DNA from: Leptolyngbya sp. NIES-3755 | GTDB lineage: Bacteria; Cyanobacteriota; Cyanobacteriia; Leptolyngbyales; Leptolyngbyaceae | Assembly: GCA_001548435.1 (NCBI GenBank) | Contig: AP017308.1 | Span: forward strand, 5,775,030 to 5,839,029 | Direction of reading: 5' to 3' | DNA length: 64,000 nucleotides | Part shown: positions 3,587 to 12,766 of the stretch, piece after piece | Layout of the letters: every line of letters begins with the position of its first letter | How positions within the stretch are numbered: the first letter of the stretch is position 1 | Notes under the pieces: model-generated | Told to the model about the DNA's origin: nothing | Databases searched by the model: none | The model's input: only the letters and a program-made list of their open reading frames with translations | Position numbers and translations under genes: made by a program

Positions 3587-4843
3587 ATGGCAGACTGGCA
3601 GCAAATCGAGGGCGGAATCACAGCCCCTAAAGGCTACAAAGCAGCAGGAATCACCGCAGGACTTAAACCTTCTGGTTTACCCGATCTCGCTTTAATCGTT
3701 TCGGATGTAGACGCGATCGCGGCTGGCGTGTTCACGACTTCCCAAGTTCGCGCTGCCTGCGTCGATTACTGCCGCGAACGGCTCCAAACCAAATCCAACT
3801 GCCGAGCGATTCTCTGTAATGCGGGACAAGCTAATGCTGCCACGGGTGCACAAGGAATGATTGATGCGCTCGAATCGGCTCAATTGATTTCGCAAGCTTT
3901 GAATCTCGCCTCTGATACGATTTTGCTGGCTTCAACGGGCGTAATTGGTCAGCGAATCAAGATGGATGTATTGCGATCGGCAATTCCCAATCTCGTCGCG
4001 AGTCTAAGCGAAACTGGAAATGCTGCGGCTTCTAAAGCGATTACAACTACAGATTTAGTCACGAAATCGATCGCATTAGAAACGACGATCGGCGATCGAC
4101 CTGTTCGGATTGGTGGAATCGCCAAAGGTTCTGGAATGATCCATCCGAACATGGCGACAATGTTAGCTTTCGTCACTTGCGATGCCGCCGTTTCTTCTCA
4201 TTTGTGGCAAGAGATGTTAAGTCGTGCTGCCGATCGCAGTTTTAATCAAATTACAGTCGATGGGGATACCAGCACGAATGATAGTTTGATTGCATTAGCA
4301 AATGGACAATCGAGAACGCCTGCAATTACGGAACCGGGAACCGAAGCGGACAAGCTCGAAGCAATGCTGACCGAAGTTTGTATCTATTTGGCGAAAGCGA
4401 TCGCACGAGATGGAGAAGGTGCAACTTGTTTGATCGAAGTTCAGGTGACGGGGGCAGCAGATGATGAATCGGCGCGGAAAGTGGCTCGCACGATCGCGGG
4501 TTCATCATTAGTGAAATCTGCAATTTTTGGACGTGATCCGAACTGGGGCAGAATTGCAGGAGCCGCAGGACGAGCAGATATCACGTTTGACCAAGAAGAT
4601 TTGCAGATTAAACTCGGTGAGTTTGTTTTGATGCAGAATGGGCAGCCGCAAATGTTCGATCGACCAGGCGCAAGTGAGTATTTGAAGCAGCAAGCCGCGA
4701 AGAGTTCGGATGGCGATCGACAATTGCTGGATCATCCGGTGATTATCTCAGCGAGCATTGGAAACGGGACAGGGAATGGAAAAGCTTGGGGCTGTGATCT
4801 GAGCTATGACTATGTGAAAATCAACGCTGAGTACACGACTTAG
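3587..4843 (+). CDS. argJ: Bifunctional ornithine acetyltransferase / N-acetylglutamate synthase
   Basis: The 418-residue length is usual for ArgJ, which transfers acetyl from N-acetylornithine to glutamate in the cyclic arginine pathway. The self-cleavage site is visible in GSGMIHPNMATML, where the Thr after Ala becomes the N-terminal nucleophile of the beta chain. The N-terminal ASTGVIGQ oxyanion-hole region and the C-terminal GRDPNWGR and SIGNGTGNGKAWGCDL segments are also conserved. It stands alone, as arg genes are typically dispersed in cyanobacteria. The ATG follows a short leader containing the sRNA candidate. Confidence 0.97.
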   Translation: MADWQQIEGGITAPKGYKAAGITAGLKPSGLPDLALIVSDVDAIAAGVFTTSQVRAACVDYCRERLQTKSNCRAILCNAGQANAATGAQGMIDALESAQLISQALNLASDTILLASTGVIGQRIKMDVLRSAIPNLVASLSETGNAAASKAITTTDLVTKSIALETTIGDRPVRIGGIAKGSGMIHPNMATMLAFVTCDAAVSSHLWQEMLSRAADRSFNQITVDGDTSTNDSLIALANGQSRTPAITEPGTEADKLEAMLTEVCIYLAKAIARDGEGATCLIEVQVTGAADDESARKVARTIAGSSLVKSAIFGRDPNWGRIAGAAGRADITFDQEDLQIKLGEFVLMQNGQPQMFDRPGASEYLKQQAAKSSDGDRQLLDHPVIISASIGNGTGNGKAWGCDLSYDYVKINAEYTT

Positions 4844-4953
4844 CATTCTGAAACTAGCGGTTTATCCCTGCTCTCCATTCGGGAATTCTGGCTCTAAGCG
4901 ACTCTACCCGATGTGCGGGTTGCTACAATCTATCAAACGCGATTAAATGCCGC

Positions 4954-6753
4954 ATGAATAAGAAGCAACTCTCTGAGCGGGATATCTGCACAAAGTACAT
5001 TACGCCAGCGCTAGTCAGAGCAGGTTGGAATATTCTGACTCAGGTGCGTGAAGAATTTGCGCTGACTCAGGGGCGGATTGTTGTTCGGGGTAAATTGCAT
5101 ACTCGTGCTCAGAATAAACGGGCGGATTATGTGTTGTTTTACAAGCCGAATATCCCGATCGCAATTATTGAGGCGAAAGACAACACTCATACGTTGGGTG
5201 ATGGGATGCAGCAGGGACTTGGATATGCAGAAATGCTTCAGGTTCCGTTTGTGTTTAGTTCTAACGGGGATGGCTTTCTGTTTCACAACAAGATTGCAAC
5301 CGATGGCACGAACACTACGTGCAGCGGAGCTTGCGAGCGGGAACTGAGCTTGAATGAGTTTCCGTCACCGGAGCAGCTTTGGCAAGAGTGGGCGAAACAT
5401 CAAGGATTGACTGAGCAGCAAGAGAGCTTAGTGATTCAGGATTATTACAGTGACGGCAGTAACAAAACGCCGCGTTACTATCAGTTGCTTGCGATTAATA
5501 AAACGATCGAAGCGATCGCGAAAGGTCAGAATCGGATTTTGCTCGTGATGGCGACAGGGACAGGGAAAACCTTTACCGCATTTCAGATTATTTGGCGGCT
5601 GTGGAAGTCGAAGACCAAAAAACGGATTCTGTTTCTTGCCGATCGCAATATTTTGGTGGATCAAACGATGACCAATGATTTCAAACCCTTTGGGGGTGCG
5701 ATGACGAAGATCCAGAAGCGGCAAGCGAATAAAGCGTATGAAATTTATCTGTCGCTGTATCAGGCTGTGACCGGAAGCGAAGAAGAGCAGAACATTTATA
5801 AGCAATTTAGCCCGGATTTTTTTGATCTGATTATTGTGGATGAGTGCCATCGGGGAAGCGCAGCGGCAGATTCGGCATGGCGGCAGATTTTAGAGTACTT
5901 TGCCTCTGCAACTCAGATCGGACTGACAGCAACGCCTAAAGAAACGAAAGCGGTTTCTAATATTGATTACTTTGGAGAACCGATCTATACGTACTCGTTG
6001 AAACAGGGAATTGAAGACGGGTTTCTGGCTCCTTATAAAGTCGTGCGGTTTGATTTGGATAAGGATCTGTCGGGGTGGCGACCGAGTAAAGGCACGATCG
6101 ACAAACATGGCAATGAGATTGAAGACCGGATTTATAATCAACGGGATTTCGATCGAACATTGGTGCTAGAGAAACGAACGCAATTGGTCGCTCGGAAGAT
6201 TACGGAATTTTTGAAGCAGACGAATCGGTTTGATAAAAAGGGCATTCCCTTCTTAAAGGTATACAACTTGAAGGTATACAACATCAGAGATCAGAAGCTT
6301 GATTTTCAATATAAACCTCAATTCGTAGATGAAGAGTGGCATTTGAAAGCAAAGCGTTCGTGCTTGAAACCAGGTGATGTCATTATGAACATAGTGGGAC
6401 CGCCTTTAGGCAAAGTAGCAATCATTCCAGAAGGCTTTCCTGAATATAATTGCAACCAAGCCATTGTATTTTTTAGACCTGTGATTCAGTCTTTGAACAA
6501 GTATTTATATTTGTATTTACTTGCAGGAAAGTTTCTAGAAAAAATTGAGTTGATAGGAACCGCAGGACAGGACAATATTTCAGTTACTAAAAGCCGCTCG
6601 ATTCCTATTCCTCTTCCACCTCTTGCTGAGCAGAAGCGCATTGTTGCTAAAGTCGATCGACTTATGAGTTTATGCGATCGCTTAGAACAACAAATCGATG
6701 CCGCCACAGACAAACGAACCGAGCTACTCAACGCATTAATCGCACAAGTCTAA
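4954..6753 (+). CDS. HsdR-HsdS fusion: relic or rearranged type I restriction protein
   Basis: Residues 1 to about 429 match the front of a type I restriction subunit. A PD-(D/E)xK nuclease domain comes first (D58, E73-A-K75), then a helicase motor with Walker A ATGTGKT (200-206), DECH (296-299) and a TATPKET motif. At residue 430 (base 6241) the sequence switches in frame to the second target-recognition half of an HsdS subunit. It begins GIPFLKVYN, includes [12 protein letters not shown] and ends in the conserved coiled coil [21 protein letters not shown]-like tail. The rest of HsdR, all of HsdM and the first HsdS domain are missing. A normal HsdR is far longer, so this is probably a deletion product. 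The intact frame means a chimeric protein could still be made. No methyltransferase is nearby. Confidence 0.85.
6252..6281 (+). repeat. 15-bp tandem duplication just after the HsdR/HsdS junction
   Basis: CTTAAAGGTATACAA is followed directly by CTTGAAGGTATACAA (one mismatch). This duplicates five codons, giving [10 protein letters not shown] in the protein 11 bases after the fusion point. It keeps the frame. Confidence 0.85.
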
Positions 6754-6832
6754 CTGCCGATTCTGCACAATGAGCGCGATCGATATAATGAAAATGCGAT
6801 CGTACAAAAGTATCTGTATTAGGAGACAAATT

Positions 6833-7069
6833 ATGGCAACACAAACCATCAATCTTAAACTTGTTGAATCACTCCTTCAAGCGATCGATGCCCTGCCTCC
6901 AGCCGAACAGAATCTAGTGAAGTCACGTCTCCTTGATCAAAATCAATCCAAGCCAGCCAAACAATCTGCGATCGACATTCTCACGGCTTTACCCACACAG
7001 TCAATATTTCAAACCCCTGAAGAAGTCGATCAGTATATCCAAGAAGAGCGTAATTCATGGGACAGCTAA
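6833..7069 (+). CDS. Antitoxin of a PIN-type toxin-antitoxin pair
   Basis: The start is placed at ATG 6833 because AGGAGA lies 6 bases upstream; the frame also extends upstream to 6770 without a ribosome site. The 78-residue acidic product begins with an amphipathic helix (LVESLLQAIDALPPAEQNLVKSRL-like). It ends in an acidic tail with PEEVDQYIQEERNSWD, typical of toxin-binding tails of VapB-like antitoxins in cyanobacteria. Its stop lies inside the toxin gene (13-base overlap). The tail is duplicated almost verbatim in the remnant at 8655-8756. No DNA-binding domain of a named family is certain. Confidence 0.75.
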   Translation: MATQTINLKLVESLLQAIDALPPAEQNLVKSRLLDQNQSKPAKQSAIDILTALPTQSIFQTPEEVDQYIQEERNSWDS

Positions 7070-7500
7070 ACCTACCCGACTCAAGCCTCATATACCTCGA
7101 TACTGTCACCATCATTTACAGCGTTGAAAGATTCCCAAGCTACATCACTCTTCTTGATCCAATGTGGCAACAACTTCAATCAAGTAGATTCCAAGTCATC
7201 ACAAGTGAACTAGCACTACTCGAAACCTTAGTACTACCCATTCGTCAAAACAACAGAGTCCTATTGAGTCGCTACGAAACCCTCCTAACCTTATCAGAAG
7301 TCAACCTCATCCCGATCTCCCAATCCATTCTCAGAAGTGCCGCAAACATCCGCGCAGAAGCAAACCTTAGAACTCCTGATGCCATTCATGCTGCAACTGC
7401 GATCGAAAGTGGGTGCACAATGTTTCTGACAAATGATCTCGGATTTCGGAGAATTGCAAACTTTCCAGTCGTAATTCTTCAGGATATCCTTGACTCGTAA
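7057..7500 (+). CDS. PIN-domain toxin (VapC-like ribonuclease)
   Basis: The 147-residue PIN domain carries acidic residues in the expected order: D in IYLDTVTIIY, E in ALLETL, D in RTPDAIHAATA and D in FLTNDLGF. These bind Mg2+ for RNA cleavage in VapC toxins. It overlaps the upstream antitoxin by 13 bases, the usual coupling for such pairs. The N-terminal MGQLNLPD stretch reappears as MGRLTLP at 8744, showing that part of this module was once duplicated. Confidence 0.88.
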   Translation: MGQLNLPDSSLIYLDTVTIIYSVERFPSYITLLDPMWQQLQSSRFQVITSELALLETLVLPIRQNNRVLLSRYETLLTLSEVNLIPISQSILRSAANIRAEANLRTPDAIHAATAIESGCTMFLTNDLGFRRIANFPVVILQDILDS

Positions 7501-7539
7501 CAGCGAAAATCAGCAAATGACAAAATCGATCTCCATCCA

Positions 7540-7779
7540 ATGAATTCAGAGACTATGAACAACTCAATTAATACTCAAATGGTAGAGTCCATTCTCCAAC
7601 TCATTCACTCTCTGCCTCGTGCCGAAAGAAATTTGTTAGAGCAACGGCTGTTTGAACAATTTCCTGAACTCACTACCGAAGAACTCATGCAGCTTTCAGA
7701 GCAAGGAGGCTCTTTCGACTTCTGGCATAACGAACCCGAAATCTACACCTTTGAAGATGGGGAACCCATCCAATGGTAG
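7540..7779 (+). CDS. Orphan antitoxin-like protein
   Basis: The 79-residue protein has the same N-terminal pattern as the antitoxin at 6833 (VESILQLIHSLPRAERNLLEQRL-like), so the two are paralogous. It then has a different acidic tail with FWHNEPEIYTFEDGEPIQW. The stop codon overlaps an ATG that starts only a 16-codon frame (7773-7823), which looks like the stump of a MazF/PemK toxin. It is therefore probably an antitoxin left behind after its toxin decayed. Confidence 0.65.
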   Translation: MNSETMNNSINTQMVESILQLIHSLPRAERNLLEQRLFEQFPELTTEELMQLSEQGGSFDFWHNEPEIYTFEDGEPIQW

Positions 7780-7823
7780 GCAAGGGCGACGCATGGAGAG
7801 TAAGAAGCCTACGGTTATCATAG
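7773..7823 (+). pseudogene. Stump of a MazF/PemK-type toxin gene
   Basis: An ATG overlapping the antitoxin stop opens MVGKGDAWRVRSLRLS and then stops at TAG. Cyanobacterial MazF-family toxins commonly begin with a KGD(I/V)W segment directly after the antitoxin. Only this beginning is recognisable; no more of the toxin is seen before the next gene at 7853. Eight residues are few, so this is a suggestion. Confidence 0.4.
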
Positions 7824-7852
7824 AACTGAGCCATCATTAGAAAACTGCCATC

Positions 7853-8074
7853 ATGTCTCAAGCCGAAATTTTAAAAAGCCTGCAACAACTCCCTGAACCT
7901 CTTCAGCAAGAAGTCCTGCATTACATCGAATTTCTCAAAACCCGATACGCGCAGTCCAAACCACAACAGCCTGAACAACCCGCCAAGCGAAGAGCGCTCG
8001 GTGCTTTAAAGGGAAAAATCAAGATGGCAGATAACTTTGATGCACCCCTTGAAGACTTCCAAGACTATATGTAA
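7853..8074 (+). CDS. DUF2281/VapB-like antitoxin
   Basis: The 73-residue product begins MSQAEILKSLQQLPEPLQQEVLHYIEFL-like (shown in part), the signature amphipathic helix pair of DUF2281-type antitoxins. A proline-rich linker follows, then a tail KGKIKMADNFDAPLEDFQDYM-like that is predicted to bind the PIN toxin. It sits 12 bases before a PIN toxin gene, so the two form one module. Confidence 0.85.
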   Translation: MSQAEILKSLQQLPEPLQQEVLHYIEFLKTRYAQSKPQQPEQPAKRRALGALKGKIKMADNFDAPLEDFQDYM

Positions 8075-8086
8075 AGGCTGTACAGC

Positions 8087-8473
8087 ATGAATTTGCTACT
8101 CGATACGCATACTCTTCTTTGGTACTTACAAGGCGATCCCAAACTAAGTACGGCTGTAGCCGAGATTCTTGAATTAACTGAAAACAATCTTTATCTAAGC
8201 ATCGCCAGCTTATGGGAGATTGCAATCAAACTTGGAATCGGTAAATTAGAACTCCAGTTCTCATATGACGAACTCCGGAACACTCTGACACAATTTGGGA
8301 TTGAAATCCTATCGATTCAGTTTGAAGACACACGGCAGTACTTAAATCTTCCTTTGCACCATCGCGATCCCTTCGATCGTATGTTAGTTGCTCAAGCTAT
8401 CACTCGTTCTCTCAAATTAGTTAGCTGCGATGCGGTAATAGATGGCTATGCAGTTGAACGTTTATGGGTCTAA
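8087..8473 (+). CDS. PIN-domain toxin (VapC-type ribonuclease)
   Basis: The 128-residue PIN protein begins MNLLLDTHTLLWYLQGDPKL, the classic first motif with catalytic Asp. It continues with SIASLWEIAIKLGIGKL (second acidic residue) and HHRDPFDRMLVAQA (third). The end, LVSCDAVIDGYAVE, corresponds to the LVTxDxxF motif, in which the D is kept. The length is standard for the family. It is paired with the DUF2281 antitoxin directly upstream. Confidence 0.92.
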   Translation: MNLLLDTHTLLWYLQGDPKLSTAVAEILELTENNLYLSIASLWEIAIKLGIGKLELQFSYDELRNTLTQFGIEILSIQFEDTRQYLNLPLHHRDPFDRMLVAQAITRSLKLVSCDAVIDGYAVERLWV

Positions 8474-8516
8474 TCATTCCACTCCTGGGTTCAGACGGTT
8501 CAAACTTCGCATCACT

Positions 8517-8766
8517 AAAGTCGATCGACTCGTGAATTTATGCGATCGCGATCGAGTTACCCGCAAGGGGTCGCTTAGAGCAACAAATCGATGCCGTCAC
8601 AGACAAACGAACTCCTCAACGCACAAGTCTAGGCTTCGATGCGGTGACGTTAGAGCGATCGACATTCTCACGGCTTTACCCACACAGTCAGAATTTCAAA
8701 CCCCTGAAGAAATCGATCGAGACATCCAAGAAGAGCGCGATTCATGGGACGATTAACTCTCCCTAG
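8517..8766 (+). pseudogene. Decayed duplicate of the HsdS tail plus antitoxin/toxin start
   Basis: Bases 8517-8632 align with the last 105 bases of the HsdR-HsdS fusion gene (6649-6753), with small deletions. The GCGATCGC of the parent copy has been expanded here by a roughly 24-base insert containing GAGTTACCCGCAAGGGG. Bases 8655-8766 align with 6968-7080, which is the end of the antitoxin and the first codons of its toxin. The antitoxin N-terminus is missing and the HsdS part is frameshifted. A 104-codon frame (8442-8756) crosses the remnants but mixes frames, so I do not treat it as a gene. Confidence 0.8.
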
Positions 8767-8882
8767 ATTGGAAATGCACGATCGTCATTCCAAACCCTTG
8801 ATTGTTGCTGAAGTTGCTTATATTCTCGGATTAGAGTTTACTTCACGACTGACGATCGTTCGCTATTTTCAAGGAATCATTG

Positions 8883-9854
8883 ATGTCTAAGCTCCGATTT
8901 CTCACTCTATTCGCAGTGGCTTTAATCACAGTGTTTTGGACTGTAGCTTGCTCTCCCCAAGAGAACCAGCCACTCGCTGTATCTACAAATCCCTGGTCAG
9001 GCTACTCCGGGCATCATGTCGCGATCAAGAAAGGCTTTTATGGACAGGCTAAACTTCAGATTCAAGACATTCTCTATCAATCTAATAGCGAACAAATCGA
9101 TGCGTTTCTAGCAGGGAAAACCGATTTGGCTTGGGTGACCGCAGGCGATGTCTTCCAAATGGCTGGACAAGATCCAGATCTGAAAATTATCTTTCTGTGC
9201 GACTACTCGAATGGAGCAGATGGCATCTTAGGACGCGGCATCAAAACGCCTGCTGATCTCAAAGGAAAAACGTTAGCGCGTGAAAATGTGCTGTTTGAGA
9301 AAGTGTTTCTCCGGGCTTACCTCGAAAAAGGGGGACTCACTGAGAAAGATGTCAATATCAAAGATATGTCTGCTCCTGCGGCGGCAACAGCCTTTAGTAA
9401 CGAGAAAGTGGATGCCGCTGTCACGTATGAACCCTTTCTCTCTAAGGCACTCAAAGAAGGGGGAGAGCTTATCTTTAGTACGAAGGGCACGAATCTGATT
9501 GCAGATGTATTAGTCACACGATCGAAGCTGATCACCGATCGCCGAAATGATCTCAAAGCCTTTCTCAAAGCGGCGGATCAAGGCATCAAACTGTTAAAGG
9601 CTGGAGACAACTCTGCGATCGCACTTGCCTCGGATCGATTAGGGATTGAACCGGGTGAACTACGCGAACAACTCACCGGAATTACCTTGTTTGACATTGA
9701 GGGCAATCAATCGATCGCGTTTAATTCTAACCACTCGAATAACGCAATCAGCAGTTTTGAGCTGGTTGCAAAGGCAGCTTACGATTTCAAAGTGGTGAAA
9801 CAGCCCCTCAATGTGCGATCACTCTATGATGATTCACTGGTGAAAGAACTTTAG
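8883..9854 (+). CDS. Periplasmic substrate-binding lipoprotein of an ABC transporter (NMT1/SsuA-like)
   Basis: ATG 8883 is chosen over an adjacent TTG. The 323-residue product has a lipoprotein signal peptide ending TVACS (Cys as lipidation site). A type II periplasmic-binding fold of the NMT1/THI5/SsuA/NrtA superfamily follows: STNPWSGYSGHHVAIKKGF, DLAWVTAGDVFQMA, LKGKTLARE, FSNEKVDAAVTYEPF. Such proteins bind nitrate, sulfonates, taurine or pyrimidine precursors; the ligand cannot be told here. No permease or ATPase gene is adjacent, so it is an orphan that must work with a transporter encoded elsewhere or act as a sensor. Confidence 0.88.
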   Translation: MSKLRFLTLFAVALITVFWTVACSPQENQPLAVSTNPWSGYSGHHVAIKKGFYGQAKLQIQDILYQSNSEQIDAFLAGKTDLAWVTAGDVFQMAGQDPDLKIIFLCDYSNGADGILGRGIKTPADLKGKTLARENVLFEKVFLRAYLEKGGLTEKDVNIKDMSAPAAATAFSNEKVDAAVTYEPFLSKALKEGGELIFSTKGTNLIADVLVTRSKLITDRRNDLKAFLKAADQGIKLLKAGDNSAIALASDRLGIEPGELREQLTGITLFDIEGNQSIAFNSNHSNNAISSFELVAKAAYDFKVVKQPLNVRSLYDDSLVKEL

Positions 9855-12117: not shown

Positions 12118-12498
12118 CTACAGCAAAGGCAATAGCTCTAATTCATCAATAAAACGATAATCGCGTTGGTTTCTGGTCAGAAAAGAAATCTGATTAACTA
12201 ATGCAGTTGCAGCAATCAACGCATCTGCCATGAGTAGCCCATGACTCAAGCGGTAGGTACGCAATAAATCAACCGCTCTTCGAGAAATGTCGATCGTTAA
12301 ATCCTGAATTTCAAATCCACTCAACAGCCGCTCGACGCGCCGAAGCTCGGACATATTCTGACATCCTACAATTAATTCCATTTGCGTCACGACACCCACA
12401 GCCAGAGTCTCCGATTCTGAAAGCGCCAGTAATCTCTCTACTGCAATCTGTTGATTCCGCAATACATCAATCAAAATATCGCTATCGATCAGAATCAT
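12118..12498 (-). CDS. PIN-domain toxin (VapC-type)
   Basis: The 126-residue PIN protein begins MILIDSDILIDVLRN with the first Asp, and has E in VTQMELIVG and D in LLMADALIAATAL. FLTRNQRDYRFI is the fourth motif, with N/D in place of the usual Asp pair. It overlaps the upstream antitoxin by 17 bases on the minus strand. Its end lies 12 bases from the ruvC stop, so the two transcripts converge. Confidence 0.9.
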   Translation of the reverse strand: MILIDSDILIDVLRNQQIAVERLLALSESETLAVGVVTQMELIVGCQNMSELRRVERLLSGFEIQDLTIDISRRAVDLLRTYRLSHGLLMADALIAATALVNQISFLTRNQRDYRFIDELELLPLL

Positions 12499-12766
12499 AC
12501 AGGTTCTCTGCTCTCCATTGCTGCTGCCGTAACTGTCTGACCCATGCGGTGCTGTCTTGCATCTCAGGACGATCGCGCCACATTCCTACTACTTCGGTAT
12601 CTTTTAACAATTCCGATAGCGGCAACCTCGCTGATTTTTCTGATTCAGTCGCTTTTTGAGTTGCCTGTGCTTCCTTCACTAAGGACTCTGCAAATGCCAA
12701 GAGTTCTTGCTGCTTCGCAGGCGGCAAAACATTCAATTTCTCGACTAGCATTTCTTCGATCGACAT
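12482..12766 (-). CDS. Antitoxin partner of the PIN toxin
   Basis: The 94-residue product begins MSIEEMLVEKLNVLPPAKQQ, an amphipathic helix of the same kind as the DUF2281 antitoxins. A charged linker and a tail (MWRDRPEMQDSTAWVRQLRQ) that is typical of cyanobacterial VapB partners follow. The stop lies 17 bases inside the vapC gene, which implies coupled translation. Confidence 0.82.
   Translation of the reverse strand: MSIEEMLVEKLNVLPPAKQQELLAFAESLVKEAQATQKATESEKSARLPLSELLKDTEVVGMWRDRPEMQDSTAWVRQLRQQQWRAENLYDSDR

Follow-up and report, generated by a model that had tools for sequence, protein, structure and literature searches.

Introduction

Does an open reading frame that joins the front of a restriction nuclease-helicase to the end of a DNA-recognition subunit encode a working enzyme, or is it what remains after most of an operon has been lost? 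The question is raised by a locus of the cyanobacterium Leptolyngbya sp. NIES-3755, in which an uninterrupted frame of 599 codons, lying on the forward strand at positions 4954-6753 of the 64,000-nucleotide stretch of DNA analysed here (the window) and beginning with ATG, encodes an hsdR'-'hsdS chimera. A first-pass annotation, made from the letters of the window, had left two readings side by side: a deletion had removed the middle of an hsdR-hsdM-hsdS operon, or else the cell keeps a compact nuclease that has its own DNA-binding domain and no self-protection. We compared the frame with its relatives in other genomes, with plasmid and phage records and with solved structures, and conclude that the fusion is, with high probability, a recent and probably inactive scar left by a deletion in a type I restriction-modification operon. 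In kind it is ordinary, an in-frame deletion scar, while the direct join of R to S is unusual.

Results

Anatomy of the chimeric frame

The features of the frame are as follows, with coordinates in the window, strand and the evidence for each.

4954..6753, + strand: chimeric ORF hsdR'-'hsdS (protein P0001), 599 aa, ATG start, zero internal stops; family profile matches
4954..6237, + strand: HsdR residues 1-428, PD-(D/E)xK nuclease and RecA-like domain 1 of an EcoAI-type R subunit; profile NF046051, positions 1-414 of 768
5125..5181, + strand: nuclease core, D58 and E73-A-K75; 81-row alignment
5311..5331, + strand: in-frame insertion of 21 bp (NTTCSGA), placed after the nuclease and before RecA1; in 0 of 80 relatives
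5548..5571, + strand: Walker A, MATGTGKT, residues 199-206; identical in 81 of 81 aligned sequences
5836..5850, + strand: Walker B / DEAD-box, VDECH, residues 295-299 (DECH 296-299); 81-row alignment
6235..6246, + strand: junction, with last clear HsdR codon K428 (6235-6237), an ambiguous AAG (6238-6240) and HsdS from about 6241; alignments to HsdR of L032, L034, L075 and L077 and to HsdS of G289
6241..6750, + strand: HsdS end, second target-recognition domain minus its first 31 or so residues, then the conserved C-terminal region; PF01420, positions 18-163 of 168, and 54% identity to G289 HsdS
6252..6281, + strand: tandem duplication of 15 bp (14 of 15 bases match), so that LKVYN occurs twice here and once in the closest HsdS; repeat D8 and alignments
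6622..6747, + strand: long helix predicted at the C-terminal end (HsdS conserved region 2); separate model of the tail, with a mean pLDDT of 85.2

The front half belongs to an HsdR of the EcoAI/FtnUII type. Profile NF046051 covers fusion residues 6-429 (E 9.6e-214), PADLOC REase_I matches residues 1-429 (E 9.1e-218), and amino acid identity to the HsdR of five cyanobacterial loci (L032, L033, L034, L075 and L077) is 81-87%, gaps left out. The N-terminal PD-(D/E)xK nuclease that is a feature of EcoAI-type HsdR is present (PF04313 and PF13588; D58, E73xK75), as is a TATP motif at residues 325-328 in the 81-row alignment, and the tail is marked by a match to Methylase_S (PF01420) over residues 423-582 (E 4.1e-15). 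The first-pass annotation had described a kept frame without a stop, a nuclease, intact Walker A and DECH boxes, and a join at residue 429/430, base 6241; the first three are as described, and the HsdR and HsdS alignments bear out the last, placing the join at 6237-6241. Likeness to the HsdR of L032, L034, L075, L077 and L133 reaches K428 and then ends, and HsdS can be recognised unambiguously from about G430/I431 (6241 onward). The two halves were perhaps brought together by end-joining that left a short duplication.

What the fusion lacks

A type I system of the EcoAI family comprises a complete set of hsdR, hsdM and hsdS; here hsdR and hsdS are each partial, the neighbouring ORFs examined yielded no hsdM, and P0001 has no N6_Mtase domain, in line with the absence of the methyltransferase subunit as first read. 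The HsdR of L034 carries Helicase_C at 412-527 and EcoEI_R_C at 642-796, and its residue 425 corresponds to K428 of the fusion; hence nearly all of Helicase_C and all of EcoEI_R_C are gone from P0001, and about 47% of L034 HsdR (RecA2 and EcoEI_R_C) has no counterpart there. EcoAI-type HsdR possesses two RecA-like motor domains with motifs I to VI, of which the fusion lacks Helicase_C and the GRGTR motif, with no GRG motif anywhere in the protein; motif VI (IGRG[TI]R) is present in the frames of 74 of 80 relatives, five frames being cut by contig ends. The "helicase motor" of the first description is therefore an overstatement, half a motor being what is left: RecA domain 1 is present, but RecA domain 2, motif VI and EcoEI_R_C are absent.

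The S subunit is similarly incomplete. Where a full subunit has two recognition domains, P0001 has one Methylase_S stretch, entered at profile position 18, and neither the first recognition domain nor the central conserved region of HsdS remains. In G289 HsdS the second recognition domain spans 306-484 and the sequence shared with the fusion starts at 0-based index 337, so the recognition domain of the fusion is short by about 31 residues. The tail had been named the second DNA-recognition domain of HsdS, and the PF01420 match confirms that it is the HsdS end, but its first 31 or so residues are missing.

Probable origin by deletion

Intact operons with the genes in the order R-M-S on one strand occur in L032, L034 and L077 and in L133, which is of the same genus, and the fusion is collinear with all four apart from one internal gap. 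The points that correspond to the join lie 4,342 bp apart in L034 and 4,339 bp apart in L032. As the simplest account of these facts we infer a single deletion event: an ancestral EcoAI-type hsdR-hsdM-hsdS operon would have lost about 4.3 kb in one deletion, running from hsdR codon 428 through all of hsdM and into the second recognition domain of hsdS, with the reading frame preserved by chance at the join. Loss of the methyltransferase would have been tolerable, restriction activity having been lost along with it. The open frame itself is weak evidence of function, because about one third of random joins keep the frame. A deletion within the operon, as first proposed, is thus well supported by the gene order of the relatives and by the size of the gap. 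There is one break in the argument, namely that an orthologous intact hsdRMS was not found at the same chromosomal place; argJ is present in 7 of 8 genomes of the genus, the source genome included, and the genes that follow it were read in five of the other six and differ from those of the window in all five.

An error of assembly or sequencing, with an intact hsdRMS as the true locus, would suit a junction that was seen, as here, in a single genome. We consider such an artefact highly improbable. The genome is in 4 contigs and is 99.99% complete, and neither half of the fusion has a near-identical second copy in its own genome that might drive a collapse, the next best matches being 52% (front) and 38% (tail). 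Moreover, the duplication at the join and a decayed copy of the tail downstream, described below, look like real rearrangement.

Distribution of the fusion

Outside the source genome, the junction was not seen in the loci and genomes compared. Relatives are encoded at 208 loci in genome_contigs, of which the best 80 were kept; the junction is absent from these best 80 of 208, matches ending at residue 428 in 79 loci and at 414 in one. Among 42 genomes of the family, 14 have a match at 1e-40 and only the source genome passes residue 432. Among 388 genomes of the class, a set that overlaps with the 42, 65 have a match at 1e-90 and only the source genome passes residue 434, at most three candidates per genome being scored, such that weaker copies could be missed. 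The check that had been proposed at the outset, a search for the same junction in related genomes, therefore returned no second case from the locus, family or class sets. The HsdS tail was recovered at E<=1e-30 from 2 of 386 genomes of the phylum, the source genome and G289, in which it lies inside a full HsdS; this search considered at most nine candidates per genome among the matches listed, and weaker copies could again be missed.

Matches were obtained to 411 plasmid records, in 4 of which a single place covers 80% of the query or more; three of these four, H67, H68 and H69, are among the matches listed. The H67 and H68 records encode a full-length HsdR with no Methylase_S. H69 agrees with H68 in organism, coverage and identity. 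Matches were also obtained to 134 phage records, 0 of them covering 80% of the query. In the literature searched, judged by titles and abstract openings among the matches listed, there is no description of a natural R-S fusion.

Selection on the remaining sequence

In a deletion-derived pseudogene, disabling mutations or relaxed selection would be expected in the remaining sequence, and many disabling mutations, alongside an intact hsdRMS in relatives, had been named as a finding that would count against the first-pass description of the locus. Across columns that are at least 97% conserved in the other sequences we counted 0 departures in the front half; 36 of 81 sequences, the fusion included, score 0 on this count, and the worst scores 10. 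Private changes were counted in six trios, which share sequences: the fusion lineage has 9-12 non-synonymous and 52-68 synonymous changes, and the relatives in the same trios have 7-12 and 62-88. The private non-synonymous/synonymous ratio is slightly higher in the fusion in 6 of 6 of these overlapping trios, although none of the differences is significant (Fisher p 0.09-0.82). Pairwise dS is undefined or large for most pairs and hence no dN/dS ratio is given. Both the conserved-site and the private-change counts cover the front half. The two private coding indels, the 21-bp insertion and the 15-bp duplication, are each a multiple of three.

As far as sequence comparison can discriminate, these data fit a recent deletion, weak relaxation or remaining constraint alike. 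A front half as clean as this would mean that the scar is recent or that the fragment is still constrained, and because it is still clean the event is probably recent. The clean front half, the multiple-of-three indels and the fold of the tail (see below) are what a recent event would also give, and they argue against pure decay.

Decay and rearrangement of the operon type

A second trace of HsdS lies 1.9 kb downstream of the fusion.

8515..8763, + strand: second HsdS 3' end, decayed and linked with the end of the neighbouring putative antitoxin gene; repeats D1-D4, pairwise alignment and three-frame translation

Indels in this copy shift the frame. It also carries an extra insertion of about 25 bp near 8550, and its debris makes up most of the ORF at 8442-8756. 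Both this insertion and the 21-bp insertion at 5311-5331 were considered as dispersed short repeats and dropped, since the exact core of each is single in the genome; a 16-base stretch overlapping the end of the 5311-5331 insertion has one occurrence in the genome, and mismatched variants of both insertions were checked for within the window only. Three PIN-domain genes (PF01850) lie near the fusion, at 6770-8473 and 12118-12766, and two of them are preceded by a small gene, possibly for an antitoxin, which makes this a cluster of toxin-antitoxin-like modules.

Chimeric frames also occur elsewhere. In L081 an in-frame hsdR'-'hsdM chimera of 598 aa lies at 305-2098, with N6_Mtase at 415-559; L081 is a Spirochaeta metagenome-assembled contig of 3,482 bp, and the contig may itself be chimeric. 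L153 (G402:C228, of the same family) has at 7437-9332 an in-frame hsdR'-'hsdM chimera of 631 aa, which follows HsdR to about residue 562 and continues with about 50 residues of HsdM taken from close to its end, hsdS being still downstream. The L153 chimera represents an internal deletion of its own in an operon of the same type. Furthermore, hsdR is split or broken in G414, G436 and, by eye, G289, and the class-genome matches in G164, G578 and G160 each have a stop inside the match. Given the second tail copy, the chimeras and the broken hsdR genes, rearrangement has marked the history of the locus and of its relatives; the in-frame chimeras elsewhere and the decayed tail copy fit recurrent decay of the operon.

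Three further loci were noted in passing. In G289 (L142, 1920-8462) the closest relative of the HsdS tail adjoins an intact-looking hsdM and an hsdR in two fragments, hsdM and hsdR both being named by eye. Near a contig end in another species of the genus, 106 bp of a similar HsdS 3' end survive in isolation, with 88% identity (L158; G007:C14:732-837). In the source genome itself, a second type I system, L134 (G000:C2, 4874-9085), has hsdR in two overlapping frames, 4874-5218 and 5215-7260, and hsdM (by eye) in two more, 7269-8075 and 7940-9085, which reflects either decay or sequencing error.

Structure and capacity to work

The structure of the tail was modelled separately. A model of the whole 599-aa protein was discarded (mean pLDDT 62.3; residues 422-554 under 50): MAFFT had put 17 tail rows over the front half, and this misplacement left the tail with hardly any alignment and the front polluted. 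Modelled alone, the tail reaches a mean pLDDT of 85.2, with residues 1-7 under 50. In a structural comparison, which returned ten matches at E<=0.001, this model matches solved S subunits and the short chain Esub1 (8vsr), with TM by query of 0.49-0.62 and rmsd of 3.3-10.0; the best match is 8vsr, protein Esub1, a word absent from the literature among the matches listed for Esub1 or paratox. Judging by the model, the tail domain may still fold as a recognition domain, which argues against a fully ruined product.

Folding is only part of what activity would need. An SF2 motor requires a second RecA domain. HsdR is described in PMC5248579 as comprising a pair of RecA-like domains and, at the C-terminal end, a domain for which contact with the methyltransferase has been proposed; translocation is affected by point mutations in this last domain. 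Passages of PMC3874165 have R reaching the core complex via M and state, for the EcoKI methyltransferase, that neither S nor M alone binds DNA. Because RecA2 is missing, because HsdR acts through HsdM and because HsdS is not known to bind DNA in the absence of HsdM, the product would presumably be inactive if made. What we best infer from the sequence is that it would be dead or nearly dead.

These considerations bear directly on the compact nuclease of the first-pass annotation. If it worked, the fused recognition domain would aim the PD-(D/E)xK nuclease with neither methyltransferase nor translocation, perhaps in a dimer formed through the C-terminal helix. The intact nuclease residues, the preserved frame and the recognition-like fold of the modelled tail would all suit such an enzyme, and half-HsdS proteins that dimerise are described as active in passages of PMC6158711, but there they act together with HsdM. 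Against this, the recognition domain is without its first 31 or so residues, S alone does not bind DNA in the case stated for EcoKI (PMC3874165), a methyltransferase was not found in the neighbouring ORFs examined, and the fusion is kept in no other genome searched. PMC6158711 also reports engineered proteins in which the HsdR nuclease is fused to HsdM; assayed together with HsdS, 0 of 10 variants showed restriction. With RecA2, EcoEI_R_C, HsdM and the start of the recognition domain all missing, and with no other copy of the junction in the genomes searched, a compact nuclease with its own DNA-binding domain is unsupported, and we regard it as exceedingly improbable.

The fragment might instead act in trans, the C-terminal region of HsdS binding the HsdM of another type I system and so producing a hybrid methyltransferase or blocking that other system. 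Other type I genes are indeed present in the same genome (L134, L135 and L138), and the C-terminal conserved region is present in the fusion and confidently modelled. However, the likeness of the tail to the S subunits of the genome is low (28% for L134, 36% for L135 and 30% for L138), the M gene of L134, named by eye, is split into overlapping frames, and promoter-like sites in 4700-7100 are at chance level, 4 being found against 4.0 expected. An effect in trans is accordingly very unlikely.

A bolder variant would see in the fusion a newly born, expressed restriction factor free of methyltransferase, in which a truncated recognition domain, either as a dimer or with an HsdM borrowed from another of the cell's systems, would bring the tethered nuclease and half motor to DNA. 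Such a factor, were it real, would be a natural intermediate on the way from type I systems toward simpler enzymes; we hold it to be highly unlikely, and the deletion scar remains our preferred reading.

Discussion

Read as a deletion scar, the locus is an example of the death of a type I restriction operon, in which internal deletions may leave open chimeric frames, and frames of this sort could be mistaken for intact enzymes. An active product would amount to a natural R-S fusion lacking a methyltransferase, and would inform the question of how type I systems give rise to simpler restriction enzymes.

The fusion shares the nuclease and RecA1 motifs with HsdR of the EcoAI/FtnUII type (NF046051), and differs in being without RecA2 and EcoEI_R_C. 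With the type I HsdS of G289 it shares 54% identity over the domain and the same C-terminal conserved region, whereas it has neither the first recognition domain nor the central conserved region, and its second domain lacks the start and has gained a duplication of five residues there.

Half-HsdS proteins work with HsdM. Those described in passages of PMC3874165 (EcoR124I delta-50, and EcoDXXI delta-C and delta-N) and the half-HsdS in passages of PMC6158711 resemble the fusion in having one recognition domain and one conserved region. Their recognition domain is whole, whereas that of the fusion is cut and HsdM is gone. Type IIG enzymes carry a nuclease, an N6-methyltransferase and a recognition domain on one chain. 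In type IIG and IIB enzymes, described in part in PMC3874165 and PMC6158711, a nuclease and a recognition domain are joined as they are in the fusion, and in IIG this is on one chain. These enzymes have a methyltransferase domain, unlike the fusion, which has none and carries half of a helicase motor instead.

The hsdR'-'hsdM chimeras of L081 and L153 (G402) differ from the fusion in that they end in HsdM, and in that L153 keeps RecA2 and is followed by hsdS, but like it they are internal deletions in the same operon type, each leaving one open frame.
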